From Pseudomonas tritici (lineage in GTDB: Bacteria; Pseudomonadota; Gammaproteobacteria; Pseudomonadales; Pseudomonadaceae): a stretch of DNA of 64,000 bases. This document shows positions 30,697 through 37,792 of the stretch, in pieces (within the stretch, counting starts at the first letter, position 1; each line of letters opens with the position of its first letter). Location of the stretch: the NCBI RefSeq assembly GCF_014268275.3, contig NZ_CP077084.1, positions 3,720,001 through 3,784,000 of the forward strand. The letters run 5' to 3'. Both the position numbers and the translations under genes were made by a program. Under the pieces are notes generated by a model that had not been told where the DNA came from, did no database searches, and worked only from the letters and a program-made list of their open reading frames with translations.

Positions 30697-31542
30697 CTAG
30701 CTCAGGAACCAGCAACGACGCCGGCCCGCCAACGCATCGCGCAACTCGGCGACGCCTACCGTTCGCTGCTCGGGGTCCATCGCCAATGCTGAACACAACG
30801 AAGGCCAACAGTGCCTGGGCAGCTGCCTGGGCCGACGCAGTCGCTGATTCTGCTGGCGCTCGCCGGGGCGCCGGCCTTCGGCCAGTTCATAGAGCACGCA
30901 GGCAGCCCCGTACAAATCGGCACTGGCCGACGGCCCCCCTCCCGCTATCAGCTCAGGCGCCGCATACGCCGGCGTCCAGGCATTCAGGCGACTGCGGCTC
31001 AAGCTCGGCAACCCAGCTTTTGCCTGCGCCTCGGCATGGCCCAGGCCAAAATCGAACAAGCGTATCCCTTGCTCCCCCACCATGATATTCGCCGGTTTCA
31101 CATCCCCATGCAGGACGCCTTGCCGATGGATATAGGCCAGTGCATCCAGCAATTGCAGGGCCATGGGTTGCAGCTCCTGCCATGCCAGTCCCTGCGGACA
31201 CTCCGGGAGCATGCGATCCAGGGTCAGGCCCGGCATCACTTCCATAGTGAAAAATGCCAGTTGGTGCGTGGTGTCTACCTCGAATGAAAATGCGCGTACC
31301 ACATGGTCATGGCGCAGACTTCGGGTCAGGGCGAATTCGCTGTATAGCAACACATGAGCGTCGTCGGAGGCAGAAAGGGTCTCGCCCAACAGCTTCAGCG
31401 CCACACGGCAGTCGGGCTCGCCGAACGCCTCATGCATCAGGTCCCGGGCCCGATAGACCACGCCCATGCCCCCGGTACCCAGGATTCGTTCAAGCTGATA
31501 GCGCCCCGCCAGCAGGTTAGGCGGACCTGCCGCCGCGCTCAT
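30697..31542 (-). CDS. stk1: Type VI-associated serine/threonine protein kinase
   Basis: A 281-residue Hanks-type kinase made of the catalytic domain alone. The glycine loop is GTGGMGVVY, the ATP-binding lysine lies in VALKLL, the catalytic loop is HGDVKPANIM (HGD instead of HRD), the metal-binding site is DFGLG and the APE-like motif is AAPEL. It lacks the membrane helix and extracellular domain of PpkA, so it fits Stk1 of the HSI-II type VI locus. The start overlaps the phosphatase stop as ATGA. The reading frame is intact although most of the secretion apparatus genes have been lost from this locus. Confidence 0.86.
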   Translation of the reverse strand: MSAAAGPPNLLAGRYQLERILGTGGMGVVYRARDLMHEAFGEPDCRVALKLLGETLSASDDAHVLLYSEFALTRSLRHDHVVRAFSFEVDTTHQLAFFTMEVMPGLTLDRMLPECPQGLAWQELQPMALQLLDALAYIHRQGVLHGDVKPANIMVGEQGIRLFDFGLGHAEAQAKAGLPSLSRSRLNAWTPAYAAPELIAGGGPSASADLYGAACVLYELAEGRRPGERQQNQRLRRPRQLPRHCWPSLCSALAMDPEQRTVGVAELRDALAGRRRCWFLS

Positions 31543-32252
31543 GACTGGACCACCACGGCGGTGAGGTCATCCCGCGCCGGCCCCCGCAATACGTCGCTGA
31601 ATAGCTGCTCCACCACCTGCCGTGGCGTACCTGCACTCATGGCCCTCCCCAGTTCCCTGCAGCTGAGCCCTTGGTACAGACCATCGCTGCACAACAAAAA
31701 CACATCTCCGGGATGGGTACGCAGCTCCAGTATCTCGAGGCTCAGTGGCTGCCGGGCTCCAACTGCACGGGTCAACGCCCTTGCGCCTGGATGAGCCTGG
31801 GCCATTTCTGGACTCAGTTGCTGCTTATCCATGAGGTGTTGCTGTAGGGAGTGGTCACGCGAGAGCTGGTACAGGCGCTGCCCACGCCAAAGGTAGCATC
31901 GACTGTCTCCTGCCCAGATACAGGCCGCACGGTCGTGTTCGAGTAACAGCACCACCACCGTACTGCCCATGATGCCCGCCACGCCATCGGCAGGTTGCAA
32001 CTGACTGTCGAGGCCTCTCAGGCAGCGTTGCACAGCCCCGATCCGTTGATCGAAGCCGCCTTGGCCCGGCAGCGCAGCAAGGCTGCTGACCACCCATTGG
32101 CTGGCGACATTGCCTGCTTGATGGCCACCCATTCCATCGGCGACCGCCCAACAACCACCTTGCGGGCAATCCAGGAACGCGTCCTCATTGCGCGCACGGC
32201 GCTTGCCTTGCGCCGTGCGCCCGGCACTTCGCCAAGGGTGCGCCCTGCTCAC
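31539..32252 (-). CDS. stp1: Type VI-associated PP2C-type protein phosphatase
   Basis: A 237-residue PP2C phosphatase. The metal-binding motifs are complete: RARNEDAF, AVADGMGGHQAG, WAGDSRCYLW, LLCSDGLYQGL and ARDDLTAVVV. It is the partner of the Stk kinase and would reverse its phosphorylations. A frame is open to 32282, but a GTG at 32252 overlaps the stop of the tssM remnant as GTGA, the expected coupling, so I prefer it. It has survived intact directly beside the tssM remnant. Confidence 0.87.
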   Translation of the reverse strand: MSRAHPWRSAGRTAQGKRRARNEDAFLDCPQGGCWAVADGMGGHQAGNVASQWVVSSLAALPGQGGFDQRIGAVQRCLRGLDSQLQPADGVAGIMGSTVVVLLLEHDRAACIWAGDSRCYLWRGQRLYQLSRDHSLQQHLMDKQQLSPEMAQAHPGARALTRAVGARQPLSLEILELRTHPGDVFLLCSDGLYQGLSCRELGRAMSAGTPRQVVEQLFSDVLRGPARDDLTAVVVQS

Positions 32253-32848
32253 AGTTGCTCCGGCAGGCGGAAGGTGCGCCATGTCGCCATCTGGAACGGG
32301 CTTGGGTTGCGTTGACTGGTGAGCAGGTAATTAGCACGCAGGCCAGCCAGGTCGGCTTTGAGTATCTGCGCATTCCTTCCACTGGCAGGCTCGCTTTGCA
32401 TCAGGTCGAAAAACCGGAACAACGACCAGGCGCCACTGTCTTTTTCAATCCCAAGGGGCCGCTCCGCACCGCGCTCCAGCACCAGGCTGCTGCGACCGCT
32501 TTCTGCCTCGTTCGGCCAATGAAACGCCATCGGCACGATTGGGCCGTGACGGTACTCCAGCTGCTGGTCGCCCACTCGCAGCGTCGCCCGGCTGACGGCC
32601 TGGTCCAGGCTGTAGGGCGCCAGCGTAAAACGCACGGCCCAATCACCCTGGTCCTCAGTGAAAAACCCCTGGCGAATGGTCTGTGCCTTGGTCAGTTGGT
32701 CGAGGAGCGAGCGCGCCATCGGCAGGCTGCGGCCTTCCAGGGCCCGCATGCGATAACGGGAGCCCTCGACACTGACAAATGGCCGCAGGTAACCCTCATA
32801 AAAGCGCGCCATGGCGCCCCGTGGTTTGAAGAACTCCTGGAAATCGCT
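32249..32848 (-). pseudogene. tssM: tssM (icmF) remnant: C-terminal region only
   Basis: About 200 residues match the extreme C terminus of TssM. Homology begins at DFQEFFKPRGAMARFYEGYL and continues through LEYRHGPIVPMAFHWP, GAWSLFRFFDLM and the closing NPFQ-type segment (RNPSPFQMATWRTFRLPEQL). A normal TssM is over 1,100 residues with N-terminal membrane helices, so more than 80% is missing. The 5' end of the remnant abuts tssE in a different frame, with no start or ribosome site of its own at the junction. An internal ATG at 32812 exists but would give only 187 residues. The loss of the inner-membrane part makes it non-functional for secretion. Confidence 0.87.
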
Positions 32849-33216
32849 AGCCGCGCGGTGAACACCACGGGCTGGCGGATGCCCTTGACCATCAGCGTGG
32901 CTTCGATAGCGAACGCCAGGGCCAATGGGTCATGATCCCGTGGCAGTGTTGTGACCCGCACATGCTTCAAGCGCGGCTCGTAGGCTCGGATAAATCGCTC
33001 GATCAACAGACGCGACTGACTCAATGATTCATGCAGGCTCTGATTCATATCATTGAGGTCGGGCAAACCGTAGTCCGGCAGCGTCTGTACGCTGCCTGCA
33101 CGGATACTGAGCATTTTCCCGAGATGGATGGCGACGGATGTCACTCCACATGCGGGGGCAGCCGCGAGGCGCTCGAAAAGATTTTGGTGGTGGGGCATTC
33201 CCTGGCCTCTGCTCAT
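32692..33216 (-). pseudogene. tssE: tssE, truncated at its 3' end by a deletion and fused out of frame to tssM
   Basis: The first roughly 125 residues are TssE, the gp25-like baseplate wedge protein: LFERL near the N terminus, LPDYGLPDLNDM, and RLKHVRVTTLPRDHDPLALA with the family core. Similarity ends at about VVFTARLA, where the last strand or so should follow. From there the DNA is tssM read in the wrong frame (RSSSNHGAPWRAFMRV onward), giving some 45 foreign residues to the stop at 32692. The protein might still fold, since only about ten native residues seem lost, but its partners TssF, TssG and TssK are absent here. The start overlaps the tssC stop. Confidence 0.83.
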
Positions 33217-34688
33217 TCTTTGTCGAGCTTGCCAACCAGGGACAGCGTGAAGTCTGCCCCCATGTACTTGAAGTGCGGCCGTACACTCAGGTTGACGCGA
33301 TACCAGCCGGGCTCGCCGTCGACGTCACTGACAACAATGCGCGCTGCGCGCAAGGGGCGCCGCCCACGCACCTCGGCGCTGGGGTTTTCCTGGTCGGCCA
33401 CGTACTGGCGAATCCATTTATTGAGTTCCAGTTCAAGGTCGGTGCGTTCCTTCCACGCCCCCAGTTGCTCGCGCTGAAGGACCTTGAGGTAGTGGGCCAG
33501 GCGATTGACCACCATCATGTAAGGCAACTGGGTACCCAAGCGGTAATTCAGCTCGGCTTCCTTGCCTTCGGGACTGAGGCCAAAATATTTCGGCTTTTGT
33601 ACCGAGCTGGCGGAGAAAAACGCGGCATTGTCGCTTCCCTTGCGCATTGTCAAGGCAATGAAGCCCTCTTGTGCCAGTTCGTATTCACGACGGTCGGACA
33701 CCAGTACTTCAGTCGGAATCTTGGTTTCGATTTCGCCCATGCTGTGGAAGTGATGCAAAGGCAAGTCTTCCACTGCCCCACCGCTTTGCGGGCCGATGAT
33801 GTTCGGGCACCAGCGAAACCGCGCGAAACTGTCAGTCAGGCGCGTGGCAAAGGCGTAGGCAGTATTGCCCCACAGGTAGTGCTCATGGCTGTTGACCACG
33901 TTTTCATGGTAGGCGAAGGTCTTGACTGGACATTCAAGGGGATCGTAGGGCGTACGAAGCAGGAATCGCGGTACCGTCAACCCGACATAACGCGCGTCTT
34001 CGCTTTGGCGGAAGCTTTGCCATTTGGCAAATTGCGGGCCTTCGAAATGGTCTTTCAGATCCTTGAGGTCCGGTAAACCGGTGAAACTTTCCAATCCGAA
34101 GAACGCCGGCCCGGCGGCAGCGATAAAAGGCGCATGGGCCATGCAAGCCACACTGGATGCGTACTGCATCAGCTTCACATCGGGCGCGCTGGGTGACAGG
34201 AAGTAGTTGGCGATAATCGCACCCACAGGCTGGCCACCAAACTGACCGTATTCAGCACTGTAGATATGTTTGTACAACCCGGACTGAGTCACTTCCGGTG
34301 AGTCTTCGAAGTCTTCCAGCAGGTCTTGACGGGAGACGTTCAGCAGCTCGATCTTGATGTTCTCGCGAAAGTTGGTGCGGTCGACCAGCAATTGCAGCCC
34401 TTTCCAGGAGGCTTCCAGCGCCTGGAAGTCCGGGTGGTGCAAAATTTCGTCCATTTGCAGGCTGAGCTTTGTGTCGATCTCGGCAATCATGCGGTCGACC
34501 AAGCGTTTCTTGACGGGCTCGCCACGGTTTTGCGGCTTGATCAACTCTTCGATAAACGCTGAGACGCCACGTTTGGCAATGCCATACGCCTCGTCGTCCG
34601 CACTCAGTAGTGTCTGCGCAACTATGTTGTCGAGGATGCTGTACTGGTCAGCGGTTGGTGCAGGTAGCGGGTGCTGTTGTGTAGTCAT
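33213..34688 (-). CDS. tssC: Type VI secretion sheath large subunit TssC
   Basis: A full-length 491-residue TssC (VipB/HsiC). Hallmarks are the N-terminal ILDNIVAQTL and RMIAEIDTKLS region, HHPDFQALEASWKGL, GVIANYF-like GAIIANYFLSPS, the RFLLRTPYDP segment, and the C-terminal ENPSAEVRGRRPLRAARIVV with the final sheath domain. It polymerises with TssB around the Hcp tube and contracts to drive it out. The gene is 28 bases downstream of tssB. It shows no frameshift or internal stop even though the rest of the machine has been lost from this locus. Confidence 0.94.
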   Translation of the reverse strand: MTTQQHPLPAPTADQYSILDNIVAQTLLSADDEAYGIAKRGVSAFIEELIKPQNRGEPVKKRLVDRMIAEIDTKLSLQMDEILHHPDFQALEASWKGLQLLVDRTNFRENIKIELLNVSRQDLLEDFEDSPEVTQSGLYKHIYSAEYGQFGGQPVGAIIANYFLSPSAPDVKLMQYASSVACMAHAPFIAAAGPAFFGLESFTGLPDLKDLKDHFEGPQFAKWQSFRQSEDARYVGLTVPRFLLRTPYDPLECPVKTFAYHENVVNSHEHYLWGNTAYAFATRLTDSFARFRWCPNIIGPQSGGAVEDLPLHHFHSMGEIETKIPTEVLVSDRREYELAQEGFIALTMRKGSDNAAFFSASSVQKPKYFGLSPEGKEAELNYRLGTQLPYMMVVNRLAHYLKVLQREQLGAWKERTDLELELNKWIRQYVADQENPSAEVRGRRPLRAARIVVSDVDGEPGWYRVNLSVRPHFKYMGADFTLSLVGKLDKE

Positions 34689-34716: not shown

Positions 34717-35214
34717 TCAGGTGTCGGGGGTGTCCAGCCCCAGCTCCGCCAATACCCGGGTGCGGGACTCGTCATCGGCCAGGGCCTGTTCGATAGCCTT
34801 GCGAAAGCTCGGGGTGTTGCCCAATGGTCCTTTCAGCGCCATAAGTGCCTCGCGCAACGCCATCAGCTTGTGCAGCTCGGGAACCTGTTCAACCAGGTTC
34901 GCGGGATTGAAATCCTTCATGGAATTAATGCGGACCTGAATGGCCAGTTCCCCAACGTCTGCCTCCTCCTGCAGGCGGTTGGGCACGTTGAGCGTCAAGC
35001 TCAACGCCTGTTTGGCCAACACGTCATCCAAGGTGTTCTTGTCGATCGCGATAGGCTTGCGATCTTCGAGCTTGCGCACATCCTCACGCTGGGTGAAATC
35101 GCCCAGCACCAACAATTTCAATGGCAGTTCGACGTCTTCCTGCGCGCCGCCGATGGCGGGTTTGAACGTGATATTGATACGTTCCTTGGGGGCTACCGAA
35201 CCTTCTTTGGCCAT
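34717..35214 (-). CDS. tssB: Type VI secretion sheath small subunit TssB
   Basis: A 165-residue TssB (VipA/HsiB). It begins MAKEGSVAPKERINITFKP and contains the conserved ELPLKLLVLGDFT, the INSMKDFNPANLVEQVPEL segment and a C-terminal helical hairpin. It is the expected length. The frame is open to 35550, but AAGGAGA before the ATG at 35214 settles the start. It partners TssC in the contractile sheath. Confidence 0.94.
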   Translation of the reverse strand: MAKEGSVAPKERINITFKPAIGGAQEDVELPLKLLVLGDFTQREDVRKLEDRKPIAIDKNTLDDVLAKQALSLTLNVPNRLQEEADVGELAIQVRINSMKDFNPANLVEQVPELHKLMALREALMALKGPLGNTPSFRKAIEQALADDESRTRVLAELGLDTPDT

Positions 35215-35245: not shown

Positions 35246-36799
35246 CTATTCAAGTACCGCTTCCAGATCGAAGAGGCACAGCCTGCGGTGGGTGTCTTCC
35301 TTGCGTTCGCGCACGGCGTGGTTTTGTGGCAGCAGATCGCAGCAGCGATACAAAAGCTGGGTGACTTGAAGGGCCAGCTCCGGCTCCCAGCGTTCCAGGC
35401 CCGTACGTTGCAATTCGTGGTCGAGGTGTTCGAGCTGGATCTTCGCCAGCTCATGTTTGCCGGCCTGTACACACAGGCGCGCCTGGGCCAGCCGCCAATA
35501 AAAACGCGCGCGATCACTGCGAGCGGCGTGCATGCCTTGCTTGAGTTCATGGATGGCGGCCTTGAGCCCGTCCTTTAGCAGCCGGGGCGCCACGCCTTGC
35601 AAGGCGATCTCCCAGGGCTCGGCTTCAGCATCAACCACCGCTGCAGGTGATTCGGGCATTTGTAGATGACGCGCAACCTGCAGCGTGATCCAGTCGCGCG
35701 TGACGGCATCGGCAAAAGGGGCGCCGTCGTGAAAGCGAAAGGCCGGCAGCTCAGGCAAGCGTTGCAACAACAGAGCGAAGGTCACTTCCAGCTCGGTCAT
35801 GGCCTGTTCGGCCTGCAAGGCCTCCAGGCATTGCCAGAGCATGCGCAACCCATCGAACCAGAACATCGCACCGCAGAGACTGGCGTCGAGTTCAAGCACC
35901 AGGTCGGCGTGATGGCCTTGGGCAAAACGTTCGTGATAACGCTTGAGCTTGTCGGGGGCTGGCCCGCGCAAGGCGGTGACCCGCTCATTATCGGCATCCG
36001 GGTAGCTGGCGAGTGCCAGCCATGTCAATGTTCGATTCAGGCGCAGCGCGCGCAGGTCAGTAGCGTTCTGGCGCAACCACCAGGCACACAGGGAACGGGC
36101 TTGTTCCTGCAACGTACGCAGCAACTTGCTGGCGTCTTTTTCGTTGTCCACCACCCCTTCGGGTTTGAGCAATTGGCTGGTCGCCTGCTTGACCTGCGCA
36201 ATGACGCCATTCAACCCCACCGCCGGGGCGTCGCCCTGCGCAGCCCGCTCCAATCGCTGGGCCAATTGCCTGCGTATCGGCAGCAGCAACGGCGCGTCAT
36301 CGCCCAAGTGCTTGGTCCACAGCTCATCGAGGCATATCAGGTGCTCAAGCACGGCACGGAATAGAGGCTGCTGGTTCTGCAGCGGCGGGCCCTGCATAAA
36401 CAGGGGCTCAAGGCGCAACACCAACCATCCGAATGCCGCGCCACGGGTGCGCGGTTTTTCAGGGTAGACCGCCGACCAATGATGCTCGCAGAGATAACGC
36501 AGCAACCCGAGCCCGGCCAGTAAGCCTGGGAAGGATTCACGCTGGTGCAGCGCCCAGGTCAGCCAGACGGCCACCTTCAGATCCTTGGACTGCTGGCGTA
36601 ACAGGATCTCGCTGGTTTCCAGGACCTTATGCCAATCGGGCTGGCCGTTGCCATGAATCGACTGCACCTTGGCCAGCTCTGATTCCAAGACTTCATACTC
36701 ACTTGAAAAGCGCATATCGCTGCCCGCAAAACGTGTTTGCGTACACGGCGAACGTGCAACTTCAAGCCAATAATCACAAAGCTCGTCCGAATAAGACAT
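35246..36799 (-). CDS. tssA: Type VI secretion protein TssA
   Basis: A 517-residue TssA with the N-terminal ImpA domain (about 40-140; HWSAVYPEKPRTRGAAFGWL is typical) and a long helical C-terminal part. TssA caps or recruits the sheath during assembly at the baseplate. The start at 36799 opens the minus-strand operon tssA-tssB-tssC-tssE. The protein appears complete. Confidence 0.88.
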   Translation of the reverse strand: MSYSDELCDYWLEVARSPCTQTRFAGSDMRFSSEYEVLESELAKVQSIHGNGQPDWHKVLETSEILLRQQSKDLKVAVWLTWALHQRESFPGLLAGLGLLRYLCEHHWSAVYPEKPRTRGAAFGWLVLRLEPLFMQGPPLQNQQPLFRAVLEHLICLDELWTKHLGDDAPLLLPIRRQLAQRLERAAQGDAPAVGLNGVIAQVKQATSQLLKPEGVVDNEKDASKLLRTLQEQARSLCAWWLRQNATDLRALRLNRTLTWLALASYPDADNERVTALRGPAPDKLKRYHERFAQGHHADLVLELDASLCGAMFWFDGLRMLWQCLEALQAEQAMTELEVTFALLLQRLPELPAFRFHDGAPFADAVTRDWITLQVARHLQMPESPAAVVDAEAEPWEIALQGVAPRLLKDGLKAAIHELKQGMHAARSDRARFYWRLAQARLCVQAGKHELAKIQLEHLDHELQRTGLERWEPELALQVTQLLYRCCDLLPQNHAVRERKEDTHRRLCLFDLEAVLE

Positions 36800-36986
36800 T
36801 TGGCACCGCGCGCAACTAACCGAGACAAAAAGGCCAACTAATCACATTTAAAACTGCACATCAGAAAGCCATCTGTACTTTGCAGAAACCCCTGCAAAGC
36901 TCCCAAACCTTAGCCACACCTATAACATTCAGCAAGCGACGGAATTACACTTAATCCTTTTCCTACAAAAATCCTAAATCGACGAA

Positions 36987-37093
36987 TGCGCAGCTTTTTG
37001 CGCACTTAAACAACTGTAGATGCTCGACCTCTTCGAAAACTGTAAGTTTTACCAAGCGATCTATCTGAGCAACTAAATGCGCACCGCTGCGCA
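36987..37093. promoter_or_regulatory. Paired TGCGCA sites, candidate activator-binding sites
   Basis: TGCGCA occurs at 36987, 36999, 37078 and 37088, giving TGCGCA-N6-TGCGCA and TGCGCA-N4-TGCGCA. Each hexamer is itself a palindrome. They lie about 100-205 bases upstream of the sigma-54-like promoter, a distance typical of enhancer sites. Confidence 0.45.
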
Positions 37094-37191
37094 ATCAAAT
37101 ACCGTCCAAAGCAATTAAAACTCGCCTATCTCATAGAAATTCCATGCACATATAACGCTGCCCCCCTAATTTTATTGGGCGACGTACTTTC

Positions 37192-37207
37192 AGGCACGCT
37201 TCTTGTT
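37192..37207 (+). promoter_or_regulatory. Sigma-54-type promoter before hcp
   Basis: AGGCACGCTTCTTGTT fits the consensus TGGCACG-N4-TTGCW except for the first base and one C-to-T change at the GC element. It ends 69 bases before the hcp start. Type VI genes of this group are known to be under sigma-54 control through Sfa-type activators. Confidence 0.6.
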
Positions 37208-37276
37208 ATAGGTATTTGCCCAGCCGGCACATTTATCGGTTGGGACTACCTCATTAATCAGGCAAGGAAACCCGTC

Positions 37277-37792
37277 ATGCCAACACCCGCGTATCTCTCC
37301 ATCACCGGTGTCAAACAAGGTTTGATTACGGCAGGCACGTTTACCCAGGACTCGGTAGGTAACATTTATCAGGAAGGCCATGAGGACCAGATCCTGGTCC
37401 AGGCCTTTGCTCATCAGGTGATCATTCCCCGCGATCCGCAGTCGGGCCAGCCAACGGGCCAGAGGGTCCATAAGCCCTTGATGATCAGCAAGGTCTTCGA
37501 TAAGTCTTCGCCATTGCTGTTCAGCGCATTGACCAGCGGCGAAGAGGTCAAGTGTCGGCTGGAATGGTTGCGCACCTCGTCGGCCGGCACCCAGGAACAC
37601 TACTTCACCATTGAGTTGGAGGGGGCGACCATCGTTGACATCCAGTCACGCATGCCCAATTGCCAGGACCCGGACAACGCCCATTTCACGCACCTGGAAG
37701 ATGTGTACTTCACGTATCGCAAGATCGTGTGGACCCATGAAGTGTCCGGGACATCGGGGTCTGATGACTGGCGCAGCCCGGTTGCGGGCTAG
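37277..37792 (+). CDS. hcp: Hcp tube protein of type VI secretion
   Basis: A 171-residue Hcp, full length. Typical segments are the N-terminal PAYLSITGVKQGLI, QVLVQAFAHQV-like ILVQAFAHQVIIP, and the C-terminal HLEDVYFTYRKIVWTHE. Six subunits form the hexameric ring of the inner tube that is fired with VgrG at its tip. AAGGAA precedes the ATG at 37277. No vgrG or effector gene follows it here. It could be exported by another type VI machine in the same cell if one exists. Confidence 0.94.
   Translation: MPTPAYLSITGVKQGLITAGTFTQDSVGNIYQEGHEDQILVQAFAHQVIIPRDPQSGQPTGQRVHKPLMISKVFDKSSPLLFSALTSGEEVKCRLEWLRTSSAGTQEHYFTIELEGATIVDIQSRMPNCQDPDNAHFTHLEDVYFTYRKIVWTHEVSGTSGSDDWRSPVAG

Follow-up and report, generated by a model that had tools for sequence, protein, structure and literature searches.

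A recent deletion probably left a young null remnant of an HSI-II-type type VI secretion locus in Pseudomonas tritici

One recent, non-homologous deletion of ~13.6 kb has very probably (a probability of about 0.9) reduced an HSI-II-type type VI secretion system (T6SS) locus of Pseudomonas tritici to a young null remnant with no function of its own. The deletion took out the baseplate (tssF, tssG, tssK) and the membrane complex (tssJ, tssL and most of tssM). Also gone are tssH/clpV, for the ATPase that recycles the sheath, and the genes of the FHA protein and of the sigma-54-type activator (sfa). A sheath and tube without TssF, TssG, TssK, TssJ, TssL and TssM cannot fire across the envelope. 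The leftover hcp, tssA, tssB, tssC, most of tssE, tssM tail, stp and stk should be unable to build a secretion machine, since any remnant sheath would have neither a baseplate nor a membrane anchor of its own kind, and the secretion function of the locus is presumed lost. The cell still has an HSI-I-type system, and the null allele is presumably either drifting or under positive selection, given the cost of an antagonistic weapon that is not used. The names HSI-I, HSI-II and sfa follow P. aeruginosa, as does the gene order.

Results

Locus and junction

The window, the whole stretch of 64,000 nucleotides analysed, comprised positions 3720001-3784000 of Pseudomonas tritici NZ_CP077084.1 (GCF_014268275.3). 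The source genome, designated G000 in the comparisons, is one contig of 6,240,195 bases listed as 100% complete, and its relatives belong to the fluorescens group of Pseudomonas. The minus strand of the window carries tssA, tssB, tssC, a shortened tssE, the tail of tssM, stp and stk, with hcp divergent on the plus strand (Table 1). This is an HSI-II-type layout, with tssA-B-C-E in a row, hcp nearby, and stp and stk closing the locus beyond tssM. Reading was open over 99-100% of the reference length for tssA, tssB, tssC, hcp, stp and stk (reference, G017; for hcp, the window itself), so that the sheath genes, tssA, the kinase and the phosphatase are free of stops and frameshifts, as originally predicted. 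The start of hcp was picked by eye at the methionine of MPTPAY, and that of tssB was set at MAKEGS from comparison with G017. The longest ORF of tssM' itself is 32249-32812 (minus strand, 187 aa).

Table 1. Features of the remnant locus, with positions in the window
Feature	Position	Strand	Family match or basis
hcp (tssD), divergent from tssA; 171 aa, open	37277..37792	+	PF05638 / TIGR03344
tssA, long form, intact	35246..36799	-	TIGR03362
tssB, sheath small subunit, intact	34717..35214	-	PF05591 / TIGR03358
tssC, sheath large subunit, intact	33213..34688	-	PF05943, PF18945, TIGR03355
tssE', first 122 codons; ~16 last of 138 residues gone	32849..33216	-	PF04965, TIGR03357
Deletion junction, 3 bases fitting neither side	32846..32848	.	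alignment to relatives
Fused ORF, 174 aa: TssE' plus ~50 residues out of tssM frame	32692..33216	-	
tssM', last 198 codons (IcmF_C domain)	32249..32845	-	PF06744, TIGR03348 positions 984-1168
stp, PP2C-type phosphatase, intact	31539..32282	-	PF13672; NF033484 below its cut-off
stk, Ser/Thr protein kinase, intact	30697..31542	-	PF00069

TssE family matches cover the N-terminal part of the fused ORF (PF04965 at residues 27-110, TIGR03357 at residues 25-126), and ORF 32249-32812 matches the C terminus of TssM only (TIGR03348 positions 984-1168 of 1168). The window was aligned to five relatives and subsequently to more. Similarity on the tssM side stops at 32845 and similarity on the tssE side begins at 32849; the three bases between, AGC in the gene sense, match neither side in the 13 relatives inspected. 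Genes are thus truncated on both sides of the junction. The original prediction, that tssE is fused to the tail of tssM in another frame with a junction near 32840-32855, was borne out by the ORF, the family matches and the alignments, which resolve the boundary to 32845, 32846-32848 and 32849. TssE' retains 122 codons against a 138-residue TssE in G017, and since only ~16 residues are lost most of its domain survives.

A total of 33 related loci were fetched, of which 24 had both sides placeable 10-16 kb apart. Six broken loci and those of G143, G145 and G417 were left out of the spacing measurement. Both flanks of the window are collinear with relatives that hold the missing genes between them. 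The two breakpoint positions were separated by 13,569-13,767 bases in 23 of the 24 measurable relatives, and by 11,159 bases in G279, where the spacing is shorter because tssH is absent. No repeat was found at the breakpoints: the longest word shared within 50 bases either side was 6-8 in the 24 loci, and random 100-mers of the same loci gave 5-11. Micro-homology had been suggested as something to look for; in-register identity was 0-2 bases either side in the 24 loci, indistinguishable from chance, and it was rejected as a mechanism. The lack of a shared repeat at the ends, together with the one-contig genome, makes a non-homologous deletion likely and an assembly collapse unlikely. Removal in one event, rather than stepwise, is the simplest reading.

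Missing genes and the second system

Intact HSI-II-type loci (G017, G290, G381 and other members of the fluorescens group) have the same flank order at 82-89% DNA identity and likewise end in stp and stk, but have tssF to tssL and a full tssM where the window has only the junction. The stretch absent from the window encodes, as in G017, TssF, TssG, TssH, the sigma-54-type activator (sfa), an FHA protein, TssJ, TssK, TssL and most of TssM; the TssH family assignment was made on the G364 protein. The relatives confirm the expected order E, F, G, H, sfa, fha, J, K, L, M, stp, stk, and they support the proposal that a deletion from the end of tssE into tssM took out the core of the locus, tssM being cut at its last sixth. 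At the window locus there was no match to the baseplate genes tssF, tssG and tssK, no tssH/ClpV, and nothing of the membrane complex genes tssJ, tssL and tssM save the last 198 codons of tssM.

A genome-wide search for the missing core had also been called for, and searches with TssM, TssK, ClpV, tssF and the 8.6 kb of DNA described below found no second copy of these parts. G000 has one full TssM (PF06761), one TssK (TIGR03353) and one ClpV above the TIGR03345 cut-off (C1:67560-70142), all three located in its other T6SS. When 8.6 kb of DNA from the G017 equivalent of the missing stretch was searched against G000, only 17 weak matches were found, 16 in the sigma-54 activator domain and one to the tssK of the other system. 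The best G000 match to tssF DNA reached only 5.3e-6.

The second T6SS locus of G000 (C1:50.5-70 kb) is HSI-I-type, with TssA-H, TssJ-M, TagF, TagH and a phosphatase matched. Its proteins were compared with those of the window: TssC is 42% identical over 433 residues, TssB 30% over 118, Hcp 33% over 51 and TssA 28% over 104. There was no match between TssE' and the HSI-I TssE, and the HSI-I TssA belongs to a different family model from that of the window. Cross-supply between the two systems was considered and set aside, the identities being too low to suggest sharing.

Breakage in other genomes

With a 968-base query, matches were found in 45 of 115 relatives and in 240 of the 398 genomes of the genus. 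Among the matches listed from these two sets (for the genus genomes, down to E of about 1e-44), both halves of the junction were spanned by the window's own match only. No fused protein was present in the best 120 of 866 protein hits, from which the window's own fused protein was also absent. The junction is known from one genome of one strain of the species; the allele may be either fixed or peculiar to this strain.

DNA at least 80% identical to tssBC was found in 51 of the 398 genomes, G000 included. A nearly full-length tssF match adjoined it in 48, and the three without were G000, G163 and G277. G163 retains hcp, tssA-C, tssE, 212 codons of tssF and stk, the core being gone. G277, likewise without the core, retains hcp, tssA-C, tssE and stk, together with stp from residue 20 onwards and fragments of tssF, sfa and fha. 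Four further broken loci, without tssB and tssC, were found through tssM tails (G253, G215, G230, G183), which does not amount to a systematic survey of such loci. In G253 tssA' is joined to tssM', the G230 locus is rearranged, and that of G215 is broken otherwise. The G183 locus (C1:1234000-1260500; L140-L141) has tssF, tssG, part of sfa, tssK, tssL and a whole tssM; being without tssA-C, tssE, tssH, stp, stk and the usual flanking genes, it is broken or moved.

A tree was made from ten genes of 32 loci, omitting G402 (many frameshifts) and G183. Each of the six broken loci on this tree is a single tip. G253 falls beside G134 (support 100), G163 beside G403 (100), G215 beside G209 (79) and G277 beside G349 and G395 (73); G000 lies next to G381, and G230 sits on a long branch. 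Judged from these sequences, the HSI-II-type locus is inactivated repeatedly and separately in several related species. ClpV was above the cut-off in 12 of 12 genomes checked, a count of presence anywhere in the genome.

TssM-tail proteins of 156-322 aa gave 49 hits in the protein collection, and 11 were compared. Ten of these 11 begin either inside TssM or at a position plausible as an internal start. P0121, from an 82-contig assembly, is a TssM tail of 273 aa with 94% identity to that of the window, a closer match than was seen in any genome. Its 37 N-terminal residues show no alignment to TssM, so a broken tssM in a near relative may be its source. Separately, tssM and stk of G364 (loci L090-L091, on one contig) each match in two frames, reflecting either a lesion or sequencing errors.

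Selection on the remnant

Omega was estimated with a codon model allowing a separate value on one terminal branch, per gene and tip, with relative branch lengths fixed from a nucleotide tree. The comparison tips were all those except the six broken loci and include G143 and G279 (without tssH) and G364 (tssM in two frames). A locus was omitted for a given gene if its tblastn match fell into two or more pieces, if coverage was low or if there was a stop, and G402 and G183 were excluded throughout.

On the G000 branch, omega was 0.019 for tssE' and 0.040 for tssM', values reached or exceeded by 26/26 and 24/26 comparison tips, respectively. The two fragments combined gave 0.04 (grid interval 0.015-0.07). 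Inclusion of five columns past the break raised tssE to 0.119, those codons being non-homologous. Among the whole genes, omega was 0.023 for tssC (17/26 tips at or above), 0.070 for tssB (11/26), 0.158 for tssA (14/25), 0.012 for hcp (12/26), 0.066 for stp (25/26) and 0.098 for stk (17/25). The flanking controls gave 0.033 for the EAL gene (17/21) and 0.024 for the aldo/keto reductase (21/24).

TssE' and TssM' cannot work and yet show no excess of amino-acid changes, and the deletion therefore appears young. Of the two alternatives in the original prediction, a recent loss is thus supported by mutilated fragments without relaxed selection. At most ~7% of the G000 branch would postdate the deletion, if the fragments have been unconstrained since. 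The kept genes are constrained, but their dead neighbours are likewise undecayed. Because the fragments are equally constrained, the low omega values of tssA-C, hcp, stp and stk are no evidence that these genes were kept for use; the proposed dN/dS check on them did return low or normal values but had no power to tell retention.

Fragments in other broken loci were treated in the same way. In G163, tssF' gave 0.082 (comparison median, 0.101). In G277, fha' gave 0.166 (median, 0.166), 65 tssF codons gave 0.0 (median, 0.025), and the 40-codon sfa fragment gave 0.282 against a median of 0.026 (likelihood-ratio 8.4). The stk of G253 gave 0.327, above 25/25 comparison tips; its branch is short and the value was not significant against background (likelihood-ratio 2.85). 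The broken alleles tested mostly appear young. G277 sfa and G253 stk do not fit a reading in which all are young, which draws mainly on G000, G163 and G277 fha'.

Discussion

The retained genes are all open with normal omega, resembling that of intact relatives, and this counts against a dead remnant, as it is what a kept module would show. Under such an alternative, a minimal sheath/tube module (hcp, tssA, tssB, tssC and tssE with stp and stk) would have been retained to feed the HSI-I system or as a non-secreting contractile structure. It would also account for three separate deletions (G000, G163, G277) that end at or after tssE and leave hcp, tssA, tssB, tssC and tssE open. However, the dead fragments show no less constraint than the kept genes, including tssF' of G163 and fha' of G277, which deprives the omega comparison of power; four other broken loci (G253, G215, G230, G183) have lost tssB and tssC; the HSI-I partners are distant (TssC 42%, TssB 30%, Hcp 33% over 51 residues, TssE without a match); and the putative activator gene sfa is gone. 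Nothing here supports the prediction's second alternative, a module kept for another use, and we consider it very improbable.

It is slightly less probable still that the core genes are in the strain and were dropped by the assembler. In favour of this, the window is the sole copy of the allele seen, and the fused protein did not appear among the best 120 of 866 protein hits. The genome is nevertheless a single 6.24 Mb contig listed as 100% complete, no breakpoint repeat would let an assembler skip 13.6 kb, and the core parts sought genome-wide were not found. An old deletion whose tssE' and tssM' fragments have since acquired a separate function, perhaps as the 174 aa fused protein, would fit two open fragments of low omega and a TssE' that retains most of its gp25-like domain. 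We regard this as the least probable reading of all, since the fused ORF reads its tssM' part out of frame, TssM' is without its membrane part, and nothing shows the deletion to be old, the junction occurring in no other match among those listed for the 398 genus genomes. A recent deletion leaving a null remnant is accordingly the preferred explanation.

Losses of T6SS loci in Escherichia coli and P. aeruginosa are on record, so this kind of event is already known. In E. coli ST410, a 21.0 kb deletion inside the T6SS locus, ending in tssM, is reported (PMC10711316). The T6SS of ST410-B/H24 was thus cut by a single deletion that ends in tssM, as in the window, leaving rhsG and tssM remnants and intact tssA2 and tssD2, with no mobile element reported at the site. 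The ST410 junction is common to 941/969 genomes of the clone, whereas that described here is from one genome and has its other end in tssE (PMC10711316). For P. aeruginosa, 38 putative loss events are reported among the H1-H3 T6SS apparatus clusters (PMC11751169). The H2-T6SS apparatus deletion hits almost only T6SS genes, which is a likeness to the window; it is a loss within one species (PMC11751169). In the window, both ends of the deletion lie inside core genes. In bee-gut bacteria, T6SS loss is described as typically a whole-locus deletion, or a partial deletion followed by pseudogenization of the rest (PMC8125069). The window resembles the stage just after partial deletion in that scheme, although the cases concern other bacteria, namely Snodgrassella, Gilliamella and others (PMC8125069).

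In a literature search we noticed no report of this junction, nor of HSI-II being lost repeatedly within the fluorescens group. It is tentatively suggested, at slightly less than even odds, that HSI-II nulls in this group arise often by separate deletions and do not last, while the HSI-I-type ClpV stays. In this fast-turnover reading, broken alleles that are young and sit on single tips would mean that HSI-II nulls are frequent but short-lived. If so, selection on a weapon locus would fluctuate, and broken copies would be purged, replaced by recombination or swept out entirely before they could decay; the dead fragments could serve as a clock for the turnover of HSI-II nulls.

There is nothing unusual about the window junction in itself. 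What it offers is a clear and dated example of an antagonism locus dying by one cut through its operon, after which the surviving genes still look healthy. It is also a warning that intact, low-omega sheath genes without a machine are no proof of a retained module, for which truncated neighbours provide an internal control, showing in this case that no time has elapsed. Pipelines that score tssB/tssC as evidence of a T6SS would miscall G000 and at least two others in the sample.

Intergenic region and loci without tssH

The hcp-tssA intergenic region is kept (477 bases, with 476-501 in nine other loci), so that some transcription is possible, though the linked sigma-54 activator gene is gone. 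A -24/-12-type pattern for a sigma-54 promoter had 30 matches in the window against 30.03 expected, and no promoter is claimed. At 36800-37276 of the window, TGCGCA repeats (TTGCGCA..TGCGCAtTTAgTTGCTC; TGCGCAAaa..TGCGCA) are conserved across ten loci. These repeats are possibly activator sites.

G143, G279, G281 and G306 (L142-L143, L146-L147, L150-L153) form a clade (support 100) in which the HSI-II locus is complete except for tssH/ClpV. Of tssH, only the first few codons remain, joined to sfa. The remaining genes of the locus are open in G279, G281 and G306, while in G143 tssA contains a stop and tssG is split. The tip omega of tssC, tssF and tssM in this clade was 0.008-0.236. Each of the four genomes has one ClpV above the cut-off elsewhere, and the T6SS of this clade may borrow the ClpV of another system.
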